NCBI GenBank assembly: GCA_004292785.1
Contig: RDXG01000206.1
Location: 1 to 32,947 of the forward strand
Origin: Bacteroidota bacterium
Lineage (GTDB): Bacteria > Bacteroidota > Bacteroidia > Cytophagales > Thermoflexibacteraceae
Direction of reading: 5' to 3'
DNA: 32,947 bases
The position numbers and the translations under genes were made by a program. The notes under the pieces were generated by a model that worked only from the letters and a program-made list of their open reading frames with translations, was not told the DNA's origin and made no database searches. This document shows, in pieces, positions 8,060 to 31,867 of the stretch (its first letter is position 1; the number at the start of each line of letters is the position of its first letter).

Positions 8060-8092
8060 AAAAATATCATTTTTTAGAGAAATGGTATTTCT
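8060..8092. repeat. Dispersed 33-bp palindrome copy 1 (13-7-13)
   Basis: AAAAATATCATTT-TTTAGAG-AAATGGTATTTCT; left arm has two differences from AGAAATACCATTT; begins 1 nt after the amidase stop. Confidence 0.8.
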
Positions 8093-8880: not shown

Positions 8881-8913
8881 AGAAATACCATTTCTTAGAG
8901 AAATAGTATTTCT
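8881..8913. repeat. Dispersed 33-bp palindrome copy 2 (13-7-13)
   Basis: AGAAATACCATTT-CTTAGAG-AAATAGTATTTCT; begins 1 nt after the Uma2 stop. Confidence 0.85.
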
Positions 8914-10666: not shown

Positions 10667-10699
10667 AGAAATGCCATTTCTTTAAAAAATGGTATTTCT
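10667..10699. repeat. Dispersed 33-bp palindrome copy 3 (13-7-13)
   Basis: AGAAATGCCATTT-CTTTAAA-AAATGGTATTTCT in the divergent pruA/RM intergenic region. Confidence 0.85.
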
Positions 10700-13700: not shown

Positions 13701-15623
13701 GGAATGGTTTTGACCGATACTTTTCAATTAGGCGAATCGGAGGCTAGCCAGCAGGCGTTTTTGGATATGTTCCCGCAAAATTCCGAACGAGTGGAAGCAC
13801 AACGAAAAGCACCTTTGCGAGTAATTATTGGAAACCCACCCTATTCGGTAGGACAAAAATCTGCAAACGACAACGCACAAAATCAAGAATACAAGGCTTT
13901 AAACAGAAGAATAGCAGAAACTTATGCACAAAATAGCCAAGCTACTTCCTTAAAAGCTTTATACGATTCTTACATTAAGGCTTTTCGATGGGCATCAGAC
14001 CGTTTGGAAAAAGAGCATGGCGGAATCATTGCTTTTATTACCAATGCAGGTTGGTTAGAAAGTAATGGAATGGATAGTTTTCGTAAATGCCTTGAAAAAG
14101 AATTTTCTAGCATTTATGTTTTTAATTTGAGAGGAGCAATTCGGGGGCTTTCGGGCATCAATGCCAAAAAAGAGGGGCAGAATGTTTTTGATATTATGAC
14201 AGGAGTCGCCATTATTTTTTTGGTAAAAAATCCGAATTTAGAAATACAAAAGGCTGATATTCAGTATTTTGATATTGGTAATTATCTGAATAAAAAACAA
14301 AAATTGGAAACTATCCAAAAATTACATTCTGTTCAAAACATTAGTTGGCAAAAACTAGAACCCAACGAACAAGGCGATTGGATTGCACAAAGAAATGAAG
14401 GCTTTATGGATTTGTTACCTTTAGCGTCTGAAAAAAAGTATGATACAAAGAGTAAATCATTTTTTTTAACTTATTCCTTAGGACTTGCTACAGGACGTGA
14501 TGCTTGGGTATATAATTCCTCAAAAATGGAATTAGAAAAAAATATGCAAAAAACCATTCTATTTTTTAATCAACAATCCAATAATTTTGAAAAAGCTAAA
14601 AAAGAAAAACCTGCTTTAAAAATTGATGATTTTATTGATACTGATCCTACTAAAATTAGTTGGAATAGGAATTTTAAAGATGATTTAGAAAAATATAAAA
14701 TATTTTCTTACCAAAAAGAGGCTTTGGTAACAGGATTTTATCGACCTTTTTGTAAGCAACATCTTTATTTTGATAAAGACTTAAACGCAATGCTTTATCA
14801 AAACAAAAAATTATTTCCTAAGTCAAATTTGGAAAATAAAGTAATTTGTGTTTCTTGTGTGGGTTCAAGTAAAGGTTTGTCAGTGATTATGTCAAATTCT
14901 ATTGTTGATCTACATTTTAACGGAGATACGCAATGTTTTCCTTTATATTATTATGAGGAAATTATTAGAGAACAAAGAACGCTTTATACGCAAAGCGAAA
15001 AGGAATTTGTACGCAGAGATGGCATTTCTAATTTTATATTGGAGCAGGCTCGCAGTCTTTATGGCAATTTGCAAAAAGAGGACATTTTTTATTATGTCTA
15101 TGGTTTTTTGCATAGTCCTTCCTATCGTGAAATGTACGCCAACGACCTAAAAAAGATGTTGCCTCGCCTGCCTTTGGTAGATTCGAGTTCGGATTTTTGG
15201 GCATTTAGCAAAGCTGGTCGTGCTTTGGCAGATTTGCATTTGAATTATGAAAAAATGCCTTCTGCTTTGGGCGTAGATGTGGTTTTTATAAACGAAAACA
15301 CAGCGAATTATGAAGTACAAAAGATGCGTTTTGGCAAAAACGGAAAAGAAATTGATAAATCTACGATTGAATACAATAGCCAAATAATGTTAAAAAACAT
15401 ACCTTTGGAAACCTATCAATATGTGGTAAATGGCAAATCTGCGGTTGAATGGCTGATGGAACGCTACCAAATCACTACTCACAAGGAAAGTTTGATCAAA
15501 AACGATCCAAATGATTGGTCGGCGGAGCTAGGAAACGAAAAATATATTTTAAACTTGCTTTTAAGTGTGATTCATGTAAGTTTGGAAACCTTAAAAATAG
15601 TGAAAAATTTGCCTGTAACATAG
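10779..15623 (+). CDS. Type ISP-like single-polypeptide restriction-modification enzyme
   Basis: N-terminal Mrr-like nuclease (GIDLVG...YWAVQCKF), helicase (MACGTGKT, ICDEAH, MTATPKIY, SVGRVMRK), N6-MTase (LDPFTGTGTFMTRLL, NPPYSVG), C-terminal TRD-like region (GRDAWVYN); ATG 10779. Confidence 0.9.
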   Translation: MTLNAILTKYRKEALNERNKGDKFEKLMQSYLKTDPLYANKFKDVWMWNEFPAKNDLGSIDTGIDLVGLTHEGDYWAVQCKFFGQDAEIHKPDVDSFLATSSRRFRNEQQEEVGFAHRLWIATTNHWGKNAEEAIQQQNPPVSKISLHNLKEAPISWEKLDKGIVGDQAIISKKTIRPHQQNALENTHKHFQTENRGKLIMACGTGKTFTSLRIAEHETNNKGLILFLVPSIALLGQSLREWTAEAIEPIQAICICSDAQVSAKKSKNEDSTDGFTITDLALPASTDVEKIIKQFESIRKKTKKGMTVVFSTYQSIQVIANAQEKLLNKRYEDGFGIFDLVICDEAHRTTGITLAGEDSSHFVKIHDNNFIKAKKRIYMTATPKIYLENAKNKADKYEALLCSMDDEKLYGTQIYRIGFGEAVEQGLLTDYKVLILALNEEQISKAIQDMVTDKDNEINIDDASMLSGCIKALSKQVIDNSLKDSDPEPMHRAVAFCSKIVDSKKITNAFNNLKGSYYQKLSPEEQEKTVIVSSDHVDGTMSSNTREEKLSWLKEDTANKNECRILTNARCLSEGVDVPALDAVIFMSARDSQVDVVQSVGRVMRKAPNKKYGYIIIPVLFPSNTVAHQAMDDNKKYKVVWTVLNALRAHDERFDAEINKIELNRKKPDNIIVTTVKTESEEGTTASSEVQKAIDAQMALQFKELQGAIYAKIVEKVGTKEYWEKWAKDVARIAEQYITRIRKLINSQESHRKDFADFLAGLQNNINPAVSETEAIEMLAQHLITKPIFDALFKGYSFVKNNPVSIAMQKMVDILEEHSLEKETEVLTKFYESVKRKVADIDNAEGKQKIIVELYDKFFKTAFPKMVEKLGIVYTPIEVVDFIIHSVEAVLNKEFDRSISDENIHILDPFTGTGTFMTRLLQSKLIKKQDLQRKYTQELHANEIVLLAYYIAAINIENAFFDLQEPKNDYMPFSGMVLTDTFQLGESEASQQAFLDMFPQNSERVEAQRKAPLRVIIGNPPYSVGQKSANDNAQNQEYKALNRRIAETYAQNSQATSLKALYDSYIKAFRWASDRLEKEHGGIIAFITNAGWLESNGMDSFRKCLEKEFSSIYVFNLRGAIRGLSGINAKKEGQNVFDIMTGVAIIFLVKNPNLEIQKADIQYFDIGNYLNKKQKLETIQKLHSVQNISWQKLEPNEQGDWIAQRNEGFMDLLPLASEKKYDTKSKSFFLTYSLGLATGRDAWVYNSSKMELEKNMQKTILFFNQQSNNFEKAKKEKPALKIDDFIDTDPTKISWNRNFKDDLEKYKIFSYQKEALVTGFYRPFCKQHLYFDKDLNAMLYQNKKLFPKSNLENKVICVSCVGSSKGLSVIMSNSIVDLHFNGDTQCFPLYYYEEIIREQRTLYTQSEKEFVRRDGISNFILEQARSLYGNLQKEDIFYYVYGFLHSPSYREMYANDLKKMLPRLPLVDSSSDFWAFSKAGRALADLHLNYEKMPSALGVDVVFINENTANYEVQKMRFGKNGKEIDKSTIEYNSQIMLKNIPLETYQYVVNGKSAVEWLMERYQITTHKESLIKNDPNDWSAELGNEKYILNLLLSVIHVSLETLKIVKNLPVT

Positions 15624-15645
15624 AAATACCATTTCTTAAAGAAAA
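15622..15645. repeat. Degenerate half-copy of the 33-bp palindrome
   Basis: AGAAATACCATTT-CTTAAAG then a decayed right arm; overlaps the RM stop codon. Confidence 0.65.
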
Positions 15646-20671: not shown

Positions 20672-20706
20672 AAAACTACGCATTTCTCTAAGAACTGCGT
20701 AGTTTT
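20672..20706. terminator. Bidirectional hairpin terminator sharing the palindrome core
   Basis: AAAACTACGCA-TTTCTCTAAGAAC-TGCGTAGTTTT between convergent genes. Confidence 0.75.
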
Positions 20707-20715
20707 ATTTTTTTG

Positions 20716-23700
20716 TTAAATTCTAATGCCAACAATCGTAACGTCATCAACTTGATGCTCTCCCGCTTGATTTTTCCAATTTTCGAAGGTTTGATGCAAA
20801 TATTTTCCTTGTTCGGACATGGTTTTGTCTGAAATTTCTAAAAATAATTTTTTCAAATTGCTGGTCATAAATTTTTTGTTTTTTTCCCCGCCAAATTGAT
20901 CTTGATAACCATCTGTGCATAAATAAATGGTTGTGTGTGGCAAGAGTTGAGAGGAGAGAGTTGAGGGATTTGAGTTTTTCATTCCCTGGTCTCTATTCTC
21001 TTGCTCCTCAACTCTAACAAGGTGTTTTTCAAAAAAACGTTCTTCTTCTTGTTGTGTTCCCCCGATGGATCGTTTGGTTGCTTTAATTTCCTTTAATTCC
21101 CGATTTTGAACATAATAAAGCGGATTCATTGCGCCCGAATATTCGATTTTAGAAATACCATTTTCAACGGAAGTGGAATTTCTGATGGTCAAAATAGAAA
21201 TGTCCATTCCGTCGTTGGTATTGGTTTCTTTTTGGCGCAAAACTCGGTGAACTTCTTTGTGTAATTGGTTCAAAATCAAGTCGGTAGCATGAATTTGGTT
21301 TTTGATAATAATTTCGTGCAACAGCTGATTTCCGATCATAGACATAAACGCACCTGGCACGCCATGACCTGTGCAATCGGCAACAGCTATAAATTTTATG
21401 GTTTCGATCTGCCCTTTGTGATCGACTTTTTGTATTTCTTCGAACCAATAAAAATCGCCTGAAACAATGTCTTTGGGCTGAAAAAGAATAAAAAAATTGT
21501 CTTTGCCCAAACTTTTACTTATTTTTTCTTCAAAAGGCAAAATCGCTGTTTGTATGCGTTTGGCGTAAGTAATGGAAGCTGTTACATTTTCGTTGCGTTT
21601 CTGAATTTCGAGGTAAGCCAAATTTAAAGCGTTGTTGTTTTGAGCCAATTCTTCATTTTGGGTTTCAATTTCTGTTTTTTGTTCCAAAATTTCGCTAGTT
21701 CGTTCCCTAACTTGCAGTTCTAACCATATTTGTTGCTCTTTGATATTTTGCATTTTTGAACGATAAATCCAATACAAAACGGCTATGATTATGCTTAAAA
21801 CCAAGATTCTGAACCACCAAGTTTTCCAAAAAGGCGGAATGATTGTCAATTTGATCGAAATGCCTTTTTCGTTCCAAATTTTGTCGTTGTTCGAGGCTTT
21901 TACCCTAAAAATATATTCGCCATGTGGAATGTTGGTGTAGGTTGCCGCCTGCAAATTTCCCACATTCCAAGTCTTTTCGAAGCCTTCCAAATAAAAAGCA
22001 TATTCGTTTTTTTCGCTGTTTTTATGGTTTAAAGCTGCAAAATGAAAGGAAAAAATATTTTGCGTATAATCCAAAACAATTTCTGTAATTTCGTGAATCG
22101 GTTTTGAAAAGGAATTTGCCGAATCCAATTTGACAGACTGATTAGAAATTCGAAAATCTGTAAAAACAATTTTTGGAATTTGCGCATTATTTTGCACTTG
22201 CAAAGGATTAAAATAACTAATTCCCTTTGCTTCGCCAAAATATAAAGTTCCGTCATGGGCTTTGTAAACTGCTGTTCGGTTAAAATTAGGACTTTCCAAA
22301 CCATCTTTAACCGTAAAAACTTGCACTTTGCGTGTTTTTTTATCCAATTTTACCAAACCTCGATCCGTTCCTGTCCACAAATTCCCAAAATCGTCTTCGG
22401 TAATTGATCTGATTACATTCGACAAAAAACCATGCCTTTGATCAAAAACTTCAAACAAATTCTTTTTTTCGTCAAAACGATTTAACCCATTTCGCGTAGC
22501 AAGCCACAAAATTCCGCTTTTATCTGAATAAATATGATACACAAAATTATCACTCAACGAATTTGCATTTTTTGGATCATTTTGAAAACGCTTGAATTTT
22601 CCATGTTCAAATTTGTTAAAACCGCCTCCGCTAGTGCCAAGCCACAATATTTTTTCGGTTTTATTTTCTGCAATGCAAATCACTTTGTTGTGGCTGATGC
22701 TGTTTGTGTCTTTGGGATCGTTTTTGTAGGCTTTAAATTCGCCATTTTCATAACAATTTAGTCCATTTCCTTCTGTTCCCACATAAATTTTTCCATCTTG
22801 TGCTTCATGAATAGCCACAATAAATGGGTGATTTGGGCTATTTTTTCCTTCCAACGGAAATCGTTTAAATTTTCCATTTTCATAAACATTCAAACCGCCT
22901 GTTTCTGTACCGATCCAAATTTTGCCCTTAGAATCAGTCATTAAAGTACGAATATAATTGTTGCTAAGGCTATTTTCATTTTTTGGGTCATGATAAAAAG
23001 TGTTGAAAATGCCGTTTTCCAATACGTTCAAACCGTTTGCTGTGCCAATCCAAAGCCTGTTTTCTGAGTCAAAAGTAATAGCGCCACCCCAATTTCCTTT
23101 GAGTCCGTTTGGGTTGGAAGGATTTTGACGATAATGCCCAAAAGGAGTTTTTGTCAAACGATTTAAGCCGTTAGATTTTGTGCCAATCCAAAAATTTTGC
23201 TGCGAATCTATTTTCAAATCTTCTATTTCGTTAGAGGAAATGCTGCTCAAATCGCAAGGATCGTTTTGGTAACGAACAAAAGAATGATTTTGAAAAAGAT
23301 TTAAGCCTGATCCCCAACAACCTACCCAAATGCTCTGATCAGCAGTTTCTGTGATGGATAAAACCTTGTTTCCGCTAATGCTGTTCGGGTTATTGGGATC
23401 ATGTTGGTAACGAACAAATTGCTCGTTTTCGAAATTTGCCAAACCACCGTCCCAAAAACCTACCCAAATTTTGGATTTAGAGTCCTGAAAAATAGTACGT
23501 GGATTATTATTATTTGCCGAAAAATTATCTTTTGGATCGTTAAAATAGCGTTTGAATTTGCCGTTTTGGTATTTGTTAAAACCTCCATTCCAGCAACCTG
23601 CCAAAATTTCGCCATTTTTGCTTTCCAAAATGCAAGTTACATCATTGTGGCTCAAAGAATTTGGATTGTTTTTGTCGTTTCTGAAATTTGTCCATTGTTG

Positions 23701-24165
23701 GTTTTGGTACGCAAAAATTCCTCCGCCCCAAGACGCAAGCCAAATCGAGCCATCTTTTGTTTGTATCATTTCCTCAACGGCTTTGTTTGCAATTATTTTT
23801 TCGTCTTTTGAATAGATCACGTTTTCTAATGTGCCACTTTTGTAGCGATACAACCTTCCAGAACCGCAACCAATCCACATAAAACCCTGATTATCAATTA
23901 ATAAACTTCTAAAAATTTCTTGTTTGAGTTGGCTTGGGTTTAACAAAAAATCTTGCAAAGGGCGTGCTTCATAACCGTCATATCTGTAAATTCCGACAGA
24001 AGTAACGAGCCAAATAAATCCATATTCGTCTTCTGTGATGTCGTAAACGTTGTTTTCTGAAAGAATATCGATGTTGGTAGACTCAAATCGAATGCGATCT
24101 TGGGAAAATGTTTGCATACAAATTCCTAAAAAAAGTAAGATCAAATATGCGCAACGAATCATCAT
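20716..24165 (-). CDS. Two-component-regulator propeller / Y_Y_Y / SpoIIE-type PP2C phosphatase sensor
   Basis: Repeated IW(V/I)G..GGLN propeller blades, TWNVGNLQAATYTNIPHGEYIFRVKASN, TM helix, coiled coil, SGDFYWFEEI...VADCTGHGVPGAFMSMIGN...CTDGYQDQFGG. Confidence 0.9.
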   Translation of the reverse strand: MMIRCAYLILLFLGICMQTFSQDRIRFESTNIDILSENNVYDITEDEYGFIWLVTSVGIYRYDGYEARPLQDFLLNPSQLKQEIFRSLLIDNQGFMWIGCGSGRLYRYKSGTLENVIYSKDEKIIANKAVEEMIQTKDGSIWLASWGGGIFAYQNQQWTNFRNDKNNPNSLSHNDVTCILESKNGEILAGCWNGGFNKYQNGKFKRYFNDPKDNFSANNNNPRTIFQDSKSKIWVGFWDGGLANFENEQFVRYQHDPNNPNSISGNKVLSITETADQSIWVGCWGSGLNLFQNHSFVRYQNDPCDLSSISSNEIEDLKIDSQQNFWIGTKSNGLNRLTKTPFGHYRQNPSNPNGLKGNWGGAITFDSENRLWIGTANGLNVLENGIFNTFYHDPKNENSLSNNYIRTLMTDSKGKIWIGTETGGLNVYENGKFKRFPLEGKNSPNHPFIVAIHEAQDGKIYVGTEGNGLNCYENGEFKAYKNDPKDTNSISHNKVICIAENKTEKILWLGTSGGGFNKFEHGKFKRFQNDPKNANSLSDNFVYHIYSDKSGILWLATRNGLNRFDEKKNLFEVFDQRHGFLSNVIRSITEDDFGNLWTGTDRGLVKLDKKTRKVQVFTVKDGLESPNFNRTAVYKAHDGTLYFGEAKGISYFNPLQVQNNAQIPKIVFTDFRISNQSVKLDSANSFSKPIHEITEIVLDYTQNIFSFHFAALNHKNSEKNEYAFYLEGFEKTWNVGNLQAATYTNIPHGEYIFRVKASNNDKIWNEKGISIKLTIIPPFWKTWWFRILVLSIIIAVLYWIYRSKMQNIKEQQIWLELQVRERTSEILEQKTEIETQNEELAQNNNALNLAYLEIQKRNENVTASITYAKRIQTAILPFEEKISKSLGKDNFFILFQPKDIVSGDFYWFEEIQKVDHKGQIETIKFIAVADCTGHGVPGAFMSMIGNQLLHEIIIKNQIHATDLILNQLHKEVHRVLRQKETNTNDGMDISILTIRNSTSVENGISKIEYSGAMNPLYYVQNRELKEIKATKRSIGGTQQEEERFFEKHLVRVEEQENRDQGMKNSNPSTLSSQLLPHTTIYLCTDGYQDQFGGEKNKKFMTSNLKKLFLEISDKTMSEQGKYLHQTFENWKNQAGEHQVDDVTIVGIRI
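20943..21015. repeat. Second palindromic segment, in-frame within SpoIIE paralog 1
   Basis: AGAGTTGAGAGGAGAGAGTTGAGGGA ... TCCCTGGTCTCTATTCTCTTGCTCCTCAACTCT imperfect arms. Confidence 0.6.
21151..21183. repeat. 33-bp palindrome copy within SpoIIE paralog 1 (right arm decayed)
   Basis: AGAAATACCATTT-TCAACGG-AAGTGGAATTTCT; encodes RNSTSVENGIS on the minus strand. Confidence 0.75.
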
Positions 24166-28400: not shown

Positions 28401-31400
28401 TTATATTCGAATTCCCAAAATGGTTATGTCGTCAATTTGTTTTTCTTCGAAGGTTTCGGATAGGATTTGTTTTTGCTCTGCCATTTGTTTTTCAGAAATT
28501 GAAAAAAGCAATTTTTTGAGTGTGCCAACCATAAATTTACGTTTTTGCTTGCCCCCAAATTGGTCTTGATAGCCGTCAGAACACAAATAAATAGTTGTGT
28601 GAGAGGAAAGAGTTGAGGGATTCGAGCTTTTCATTCCCTCTTCTCTCACCTCTTGCCCCTCGCCCCAAACAAGGTGTTTTTCAAAAGTTCGTTCTTCTTC
28701 GGTTTGTTTGCCTCCAATGGATCGTTTGGTGGCTTTTATTTCCGTAAACTCTTGATTTTGAACCAAATAAAGCGGATTCATAGCTCCTGCGTATTCTATT
28801 TTAGAAATACCATTTTCAACGGAAATGGTATTTCTTTCGATGCCTAAAATTGCAATGTCCATGCCGTCGTTGGTATTGGTTTCTTTTTGGCGCAAAACCC
28901 GCTGAACTTCTTTGTGCAAATCACGCAAAATTATGTCTGGCGAATATACTTGATTTTTGATAATAATTTCGTGCAAAAGTTGGTTGCCAATCATAGACAT
29001 AAACGCACCAGGAACGCCGTGTCCTGTGCAGTCTGCTACTGCAATAAAAGTTATCGTTTTGGTTTGCCTTTGTATTTCTTCAAACCAATAAAAATCACCT
29101 GAAACGATGTCTTTGGGTTTGTAAAATACAAAAAAATTGCCTTTACCCAGATTGCGTGCCATTCTTTCTTCGAAAGGCAAAATTGCATTTTGGATACGTT
29201 TGGCATAATTAATTGAAGCAAAAACGTCTTCGCTTTTCTTTTCGATGAGGTGTTTTTGTTCGCTAATAATATCTAGCGTTTGTTTAATTTCTTCTTGTTG
29301 TTGCTCTAATTCTGCATTTTTTTCTGTGATTTCGGCAGTTCTTTCTTTGATAATTTTTTCTAATTTGATTTTGTCATTTTGCAAACGTCTTGTGTTCCAT
29401 TTCACAATTCCGTAAATTGCCAAAGCCGAGCAAATTGCGTACAACAAATATGCCCACCAAGTACGATAAAAAGGCGGCAAAATTTGGATTTTGTAGCTTG
29501 CAATTTCACTTTCAAGGTCATAAATATTTTTGGCTTTTACCTTAAAAATATATGTTCCTTCGGAAAGGTTGGTATATTCTTTTTCCGTATGCAAACTCCA
29601 TTCTGACCAATTTGGGTCAAAATTTTCTAGTTGGTAGCTGTATAAAGTGCGTTCTTCGTGGTCGAAAAATGGGGCAGCAAATTGGAAAATGAGATTGTGA
29701 TCTTTGTATTCCAGACTTGAAAAACTCTCAAAATTACTTATTTTAGGTATATTGCCTCCGTAAACTAAATTATCTTCTTCTACAATTATTTTGCGAATTA
29801 GACAATTAAATTTTTGTTGATAATTTTTAGTATCTTTTGTTAAATCATATCTGTATAATCCTTCACTGCCTCCAATCCATGCAATGCCTGAAGGTTCAAT
29901 GTAGTATGCAGCTAAAAACATATCAGGGATTCTTCGAAACGGAAGATATATCCAATCATATTTTCCTTTATTGTCTGGTTGTAAATAACCAATAGCTCCA
30001 TTTTTATTGTCTGTTGGGAAAATCCATATTTTACCATCAGGCATTTCTATTAATGAAGCTATACTATGACTACCATCACAAAAAATTTCGCCAAACTCAC
30101 AAAATGAATCAAAACGATCTGTTTTTGAATTATAAATATACAGCCCCTTACTTGTCCCAAAAATGATTTTATTTTTAAATTTAAAAGGAGAAATATTTTT
30201 TAATGATGCAAAACCATCTTTTTCTTTGTAATAACGAACTTCATTTATTTTTTTGTCATCTGTGATTTTTGTTGTAACTCTTATTACGCCATTATTAGAT
30301 GTTCCAATCCATATTTCGCCTTTGTCGCCTTCAATAATTCCAAGTATGTCATCTTTCACTTCTTCCCATTTGTATTCAGTAATCCACTTGTCGTTTACAT
30401 ATATTAAGGAAATTAATAAGTCCTCATCTGTACTAAAAATTCTATCAGAATTGATTGATGATTGATATAGTTTGGTAGCGTGTCCACCCTTGTATATTTG
30501 TTTTGCTTTGTCCGCTTTTATTTCGTAAATGCCATGTGAAGTTCCAACTAATAAAGATTTTCTTTTTTTATCTTCCAAAAAACACCAACCTTGTCCTGCC
30601 TGTATATTTTTAAATTCTTGTATTTGGTTGTTTTTATCGATAAAATAAATTTTTTGGTGTGTTGCAATGTAAATAATTCCATCATATCGAATAACATCCT
30701 CGACCATGTCTTTTAAACCTGCATATTGATTCCAATAACTCAAATCTTGGGAATGTTCTGTTTTGCTAATGCCATTATTTAAACCCAACCATATATTTTC
30801 ATTGTTGTCGGTTGCAACTTCCCATACATTATTATTTTGTAAAAGATTATTTTCATTATACTTTTGCAGAGTTTGTCCTTGTTTATCAATTAATAAAGCT
30901 CCCTGCTTTAAAGACCCCAAGACAAAATATTCTTTTTGAAATACACTACCTGAATAAATATTATTATCTATGGTAAAATCTTTATTTGAAAGGTTAAATT
31001 TTTTTGGAATACTGTCTGTATCGGGTTTATATAAGTATAAGCCTTCTGTTCGGGTAGGAATTAAAAAAGTATTTTTGTTATATGATAGAGCCGAGTTGAA
31101 TCGATTTTTATTTTTGAAAAAATCAGATTTTTGAACATACTTCAATTCGTTATTTTCTATTTTCATTAATCCTTTTTCGTATAACTGCGCATAATAAGTA
31201 TCTTGATATACAAAATCACCTAAAAATCTGCCTGTATCTGCTTTAAAGATACTTAGTTTTTCTGGGGATTCGGTATATTGTAATATTGCATCATAAGTTT
31301 GGAAATATAAATGTTTGGAAGTAGAATGTACCCATTTTACTATACCTAACTTTGACATGGTATCTGTTAGGTTGATGAGGCTTTTATATATTGTACTGCC

Positions 31401-31718
31401 CTTTTCATTAGTAGTTAAATAACCAAACTCATCAATAGCAGTTACATATACTTTTCCTTTTGTATCTGTTACCAAACCGTAAACAGAAGCCTGCTTCTCG
31501 TTTGGAATATACAACCAAGACACGCCATCATATTCTATTACCCCATTACCTACCCCAAAATACATTATACCCCTATTATCTTGAACAGCACTAAAAACTT
31601 GAGGTTCATTACCATATTCTTTGGGCGTATAATTCCTAATAAAGGGAAAACCAATTTCTTGGGCAAAAAGCCTTGTGCAAAACAGAAGTATGATAAAAAA
31701 GAAGATAAGTTGTTTCAT
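28401..31718 (-). CDS. Propeller / Y_Y_Y / SpoIIE-type PP2C phosphatase sensor (paralog 2)
   Basis: Signal peptide MKQLIFFFIILLFCTRLFAQ; Reg_prop-like blades; C-terminal SpoIIE module near-identical in layout to paralog 1; start 31718. Confidence 0.88.
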   Translation of the reverse strand: MKQLIFFFIILLFCTRLFAQEIGFPFIRNYTPKEYGNEPQVFSAVQDNRGIMYFGVGNGVIEYDGVSWLYIPNEKQASVYGLVTDTKGKVYVTAIDEFGYLTTNEKGSTIYKSLINLTDTMSKLGIVKWVHSTSKHLYFQTYDAILQYTESPEKLSIFKADTGRFLGDFVYQDTYYAQLYEKGLMKIENNELKYVQKSDFFKNKNRFNSALSYNKNTFLIPTRTEGLYLYKPDTDSIPKKFNLSNKDFTIDNNIYSGSVFQKEYFVLGSLKQGALLIDKQGQTLQKYNENNLLQNNNVWEVATDNNENIWLGLNNGISKTEHSQDLSYWNQYAGLKDMVEDVIRYDGIIYIATHQKIYFIDKNNQIQEFKNIQAGQGWCFLEDKKRKSLLVGTSHGIYEIKADKAKQIYKGGHATKLYQSSINSDRIFSTDEDLLISLIYVNDKWITEYKWEEVKDDILGIIEGDKGEIWIGTSNNGVIRVTTKITDDKKINEVRYYKEKDGFASLKNISPFKFKNKIIFGTSKGLYIYNSKTDRFDSFCEFGEIFCDGSHSIASLIEMPDGKIWIFPTDNKNGAIGYLQPDNKGKYDWIYLPFRRIPDMFLAAYYIEPSGIAWIGGSEGLYRYDLTKDTKNYQQKFNCLIRKIIVEEDNLVYGGNIPKISNFESFSSLEYKDHNLIFQFAAPFFDHEERTLYSYQLENFDPNWSEWSLHTEKEYTNLSEGTYIFKVKAKNIYDLESEIASYKIQILPPFYRTWWAYLLYAICSALAIYGIVKWNTRRLQNDKIKLEKIIKERTAEITEKNAELEQQQEEIKQTLDIISEQKHLIEKKSEDVFASINYAKRIQNAILPFEERMARNLGKGNFFVFYKPKDIVSGDFYWFEEIQRQTKTITFIAVADCTGHGVPGAFMSMIGNQLLHEIIIKNQVYSPDIILRDLHKEVQRVLRQKETNTNDGMDIAILGIERNTISVENGISKIEYAGAMNPLYLVQNQEFTEIKATKRSIGGKQTEEERTFEKHLVWGEGQEVREEGMKSSNPSTLSSHTTIYLCSDGYQDQFGGKQKRKFMVGTLKKLLFSISEKQMAEQKQILSETFEEKQIDDITILGIRI
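28599..28675. repeat. Second palindromic segment, in-frame within SpoIIE paralog 2
   Basis: GTGAGAGGAAAGAGTTGAGGGA-ttcgagcttttcat-TCCCTCTTCTCTCAC core plus flank. Confidence 0.6.
28803..28835. repeat. 33-bp palindrome copy within SpoIIE paralog 2, perfect 13-bp arms
   Basis: AGAAATACCATTT-TCAACGG-AAATGGTATTTCT; encodes RNTISVENGIS in-frame. Confidence 0.85.
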
Positions 31719-31867
31719 AAAAAAATTAAGTTGATAGTTGAACGATAAAAGTTCAGATTTTGTTCCAAAATGCCAAAATTGGCTTTGTGGCGAAGCAATT
31801 TCTTCATTGCCCAATCAAAACGAACTAATTTCGTTGCTCATAAATTATGCTTTTTAGATTTTTGTTG

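Follow-up and report, generated by a model that had tools for sequence, protein, structure and literature searches.

Palindromic repeats lying in frame within protein genes are best known from Rickettsia, with REP elements scattered within genes elsewhere. The Rickettsia palindromic elements (RPEs; Ogata et al. 2000, 2002; via PMC10969869, PMC3733652) are dispersed palindromes found both between genes and in frame in unrelated protein genes, and the classic RPEs, from Rickettsia, are approximately 150 bp long. REPs are shorter (20-40 bp), occur in many dispersed copies with a bias towards gene 3' ends, and are in some cases located within ORFs; the intragenic REPs in recB of X. campestris and X. 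oryzae lie at approximately the same site (PMC3733652). In nematomorph mitochondria, coding sequences contain inverted repeats of up to 284 bp whose arms are kept complementary, and for which template switching has been proposed (PMC6649704).

The window analyzed here is a stretch of 32,947 nucleotides from a Bacteroidota draft genome (G000; 3.7 Mb, 391 contigs; all genomes compared are drafts), and the relatives that protein searches returned belong to the Bacteroidota, with several Cytophagales or Microscillaceae MAGs among them. It carries palindromes that we name AGAAAT after their first bases (Table 1). As with RPEs, these are dispersed between genes and lie in frame in several unrelated genes, but they differ from RPEs in being 33 bp long (11 codons) and doubly nested, in belonging to another lineage, and in that several families occupy one hairpin of one domain family. 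Size, copy number (36 in the window's own genome), 3'-end bias and intragenic copies are shared with REPs, whereas the consensus AGAAAT...ATTTCT lacks the GTAG or CGTC end tag of the REP superfamilies, and no copy was found next to a RAYT (Y1) gene in any of the 30 such loci fetched from seven genomes. Unlike the nematomorph repeats, the AGAAAT, AACTTTTGG and AACCTT palindromes are copies of dispersed repeat families. The kind of element is already known from RPEs and intragenic REPs; the repeat families, their host lineage and the multi-family hotspot appear to be new, within the open-licence literature searched, where the repeat sequences themselves gave no match.

Table 1. Palindrome copies, inserts and host genes in the window.
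Feature	Position	Strand	Remarks
In-frame 33-bp palindrome AGAAATACCATTTTCAACGGAAATGGTATTTCT	28803-28835	-	Perfect 13-bp arms; codons RNTISVENGIS; predicted SpoIIE beta-hairpin
Degraded copy	21151-21183	-	2 mismatches; codons RNSTSVENGIS; equivalent hairpin in the paralogue, host gene 2
Intergenic copy	8060-8092		Immediately follows a stop codon; 2 mismatches
Intergenic copy	8881-8913		Immediately follows a stop codon; 1 mismatch; minus strand reads RNTISLRNGIS
Intergenic copy	10667-10699		Divergent genes on either side; 1 mismatch
Truncated (half) copy	15622-15644		First half plus a few bases
Host gene 1	28401-31814	-	1137 aa; Reg_prop (two-component-propeller), Y_Y_Y and SpoIIE domains
Host gene 2	20716-24165	-	1149 aa; Reg_prop, Y_Y_Y and SpoIIE domains
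Second insert, host gene 1	28599-28653	-	Loop preceding SDG motif; imperfect inverted repeat; absent in 10/10 outside homologues
Second insert, host gene 2	20940-21015	-	Counterpart of the host gene 1 insert; imperfect inverted repeat; absent in 10/10 outside homologues

The first-pass annotation had singled out the palindrome of host gene 1 for its perfect arms and its in-frame position, and both were verified, the element falling exactly on codon boundaries of the ORF. The three intergenic copies it matched to this element are genuine, but the 13-7-13 architecture it gave them results from decay. In canonical copies the pairing is 15-3-15, and the two halves are inverted repeats in their own right, AGAAAT-NNN-ATTTCT (AGAAATNNNATTTCT). 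Its translation of the copy at 8881 was also correct, with two residues differing from the peptide of host gene 1, while the copy in the second SpoIIE gene and the half copy had been overlooked. Altogether, the window holds five copies at up to 3 mismatches, against none in 100 dinucleotide shuffles. A separate palindrome, AAACTACGCATTTCTCTAAGAACTGCGTAGTTT, lies between convergent genes at 20673-20705, with a T-rich stretch after it. Matches to known RNA families in the window were limited to two tRNAs, and such a family was rejected as an identity of the AGAAAT repeat.

Genome-wide, the excess that the first-pass annotation had proposed to look for was found: at up to 2 mismatches, the pattern AGAAATNNNATTT-N7-AAATNNNATTTCT matches 36 times in the window's own genome, and the reversed control pattern not once. 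Two same-family genomes gave 76 and 123 matches to a looser pattern, and 25 genomes from other families of the order gave none to a stricter one. Genomes G001 and G002 are rich in copies, G003 and G004 poor; as far as tested, the repeat is confined to one bacterial family. Among 131 unique copies the arms covary (pair 5: AT 77, CG 37, GC 7; pair 7: AT 101, TA 25; pair 8: AT 85, CG 37), indicating that hairpin pairing has been kept rather than one fixed sequence. The 33 bp amount to 11 codons, with one reading frame open across nearly all variants. Of 132 copies in the fetched loci, 107 fall between genes and 17 within ORFs of at least 90 aa, the ORF calls being mechanical and some short ORFs possibly spurious; the copies are moderately concentrated near the 3' ends of genes (63/95 copies within 40 nt, compared with 45% at random). 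An intrinsic terminator was rejected, since no consistent U-run was seen by eye in the flanks and the 3' bias is only moderate. Growth of the palindrome into host flanks was likewise dismissed as a general rule, because overall extension did not exceed the shuffled-flank null, although a few copies extend by 7-12 bp. Additional 33-bp palindrome families were observed at loci of genomes G001 and G002, some of them doubly nested in the same manner (AAAGATGACATCTTT..., AACCTTNNAAGGT...), which suggests that such repeats form a broader class in the host bacterial family.

The comparison with homologues concerns how the palindrome came to be part of SpoIIE. All ten homologues aligned from other genomes are 7 aa shorter at the palindrome site, in agreement with the first-pass statement that this stretch is usually shorter. 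Relative to an 82% identical protein of the window's genome, its nearest relative there, carrier L142 (G001) shows a gap of 30 nt that coincides precisely with the palindrome, and carrier L153 (G001) shows a 27-nt gap against an 82% identical relative, likewise from the window's genome. Homologues without the repeat but with the same residues and length would have refuted insertion; instead, in close relatives lacking it the turn is shorter and its residues differ. The net gain in carriers is 6-10 residues rather than 11, implying that the old turn was partly replaced or trimmed. Turn length also differs between SpoIIE paralogues, and a palindrome is missing from some of the long turns. Judging from these alignments, the palindrome is inserted extra residues and not a coincidence, with the reservation that no strain-level empty site was seen. 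Together with the 36 copies against 0 and the other in-frame hosts, the insert-free close homologues support the comparison with RPEs drawn in the first-pass annotation, as to behaviour only.

In an AlphaFold2 model of the SpoIIE domain (mean pLDDT 83.7), the strands are residues 106-116 and 124-133 and the insert comprises residues 115-125, so that the DNA hairpin matches the tip of a predicted protein beta-hairpin; this placement is a prediction, without data on solvent exposure or activity. The AGAAAT element was found at this hairpin in six proteins from two genera, and two unrelated 33-bp families, AACTTTTGG and AACCTT, in four further proteins. Both are dispersed repeats as well: AACTTTTGG has 8 copies in G001, 2 of them in SpoIIE hairpins, and AACCTT has 64 in G001 and 69 in G002. 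Within a single paralogue clade (approximately 70% identical), the hairpin holds an AACCTT copy in one frame, decayed but still recognizable AACCTT copies in another, and a AACTTTTGG copy. Strong palindromes of any sequence in 175 SpoIIE domains are located mainly at this one hairpin, but this set is biased, part of it having been fetched for carrying a copy, and the rough odds ratio obtained from it is not to be read literally. A half element (RNGIS) occurs in another protein. SpoIIE-type phosphatase domains are abundant in these bacteria, numbering 93 in the 3.7 Mb of the window's genome and roughly 75-113 in four related genomes; four of the 93 matches are known carriers, and most paralogues have no palindrome.

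A quick tree of 44 rows showed that carriers do not form one clade, and no fewer than three gains or losses are needed to account for its well-supported branches. Across clades, AGAAAT carriers are 0.69 identical in the upstream 18 nt, compared with 0.42-0.49 (permutation P < 2e-4), while sharing of the downstream flank did not go beyond chance (P = 0.17). Since carriers of different clades have this upstream flank in common, short-patch gene conversion among the approximately 93 paralogues probably contributed to the spread of AGAAAT, as inferred from sequence, in addition to separate insertion events that involved different families and more than one frame. The shared flanks also leave the number of true insertions uncertain.

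Besides SpoIIE, at least six gene types carry the AGAAAT element in frame, the hosts being a CHAT protein, two CHAT-like paralogues, a membrane protein, a PUFA-synthase-like protein, a nuclease-like protein, methylase paralogues and a histidine kinase. Several of these names come from our reading of the sequences rather than from Pfam, which confirmed one CHAT domain and the methylase domain in L126, and returned no match for the membrane protein or the PUFA-synthase-like protein. In the latter, the linker is too variable for a clean gap comparison, and the L126 copy may be untranslated, being so near the 5' end of the frame. Nearly all in-frame copies use one common frame, whereas those in the methylase paralogues of L148 are read in another; there, tandem methylase-like genes have a copy each in a different frame, at 812, 2639 and 3974 (KEIPFLKEMEFL). 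In the histidine kinase (L278, 1526-1640), the AGAAAT copy lies shortly before the ADTGVGM motif and adjoins a second in-frame 33-bp palindrome, encoding RDDIFQKDVIS. The arms of this second palindrome continue past its ends in the coding sequence of the host (AATTTAGTAGCATC / GATGCTACTAAATT), which looks like copying by fold-back.

Overall, we favour the explanation that a dispersed 33-bp REP/MITE-like repeat entered the SpoIIE turn in frame and then decayed or spread among paralogues, to which we assign a probability of roughly 0.85; it rests on the dispersal of the repeat, the extra residues relative to close homologues, the several protein hosts and the several families at one hairpin. The length of 11 codons and the open frame would allow entry into a gene without breaking its frame, and selection would spare copies between genes and in permissive turns. 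One such turn would be that of SpoIIE, running from the strand ending in DGMDxxxxxI to the strand xYAGAMNPL, where the inserted arms probably extend both antiparallel strands and the loop forms the turn. Later, a copy could degenerate, as seen in host gene 2, or spread to other paralogues, partly by short-patch conversion carrying some flank along. That the element is selfish, that it moves in trans through an unidentified enzyme or through template switching, and that it is nearly neutral for the protein are inferences; template switching could also keep the arms alike, as proposed for the nematomorph coding palindromes (PMC6649704). No mobilizing enzyme could be linked to the repeat by the Y1 loci mentioned above, and no obvious target-site duplication was seen by eye in the flanks of the copies.

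It is also possible, though doubtful in our view, that each family entered the SpoIIE hairpin only once, in the distant past, and that all else reflects conversion, duplication and loss among paralogues without new insertion. The upstream 18 nt common to AGAAAT carriers of different clades would fit such a history, as would L191 and L324, which have common flanks despite domains only about 52% identical, but a single entry is hard to reconcile with three unrelated families at the hairpin, with AACCTT occurring there in two reading frames, and with the chance-level sharing of the downstream flank. Rather improbable is a REP element moved by a REP-associated tyrosine (Y1) transposase: although Y1_Tnp genes are present in all seven genomes searched and the size, location and intragenic copies are REP-like, the lack of copies near any of the 30 Y1 loci fetched leaves the link unsupported, and the element has no GTAG or CGTC tag.

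The palindrome might alternatively be kept as an mRNA or DNA hairpin with a control function (3'-end protection, attenuation or protein binding), the peptide being a by-product. Covarying arms, the moderate 3'-end bias and the folding energy of the copy in host gene 1 (-13.9 kcal/mol, z -3.4) speak for this, yet the copy in host gene 2 folds no better than shuffles (z -1.1) and other copies are decayed while the gene remains open, and most SpoIIE paralogues lack the palindrome altogether, so that we consider a control element very improbable. Finally, a chance or codon-driven palindrome in a variable loop, unconnected with the intergenic copies, could appeal to the variable turn length of the paralogues and to their long palindrome-free turns, but it is practically excluded by the absence of matches in shuffles and by six AGAAAT carriers plus two more repeat families at one site, and the genome-wide counts had already refuted it.

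Insertion of a dispersed repeat, our preferred reading, makes this a clear example outside Rickettsia of repeat DNA becoming protein. With several 33-bp families, dozens of non-coding copies, insert-free close homologues and about 100 paralogues of one host domain, the question of how repeats turn into protein becomes approachable, and since several unrelated families share a hairpin, the choice of site and frame and the course of decay can be tested directly. More speculatively, the SpoIIE hairpin could be a standing landing pad, where palindromes of several families, through insertion and short-patch conversion among the roughly 100 paralogues, supply new beta-hairpins that diversify partner recognition by these signalling phosphatases; we regard this as unlikely. 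A second SpoIIE loop, before the SDG motif, carries inserts too. In both SpoIIE proteins of the window, this second insert is about 20 aa long (...SSNPSTLSS...) and possibly represents another repeat family.
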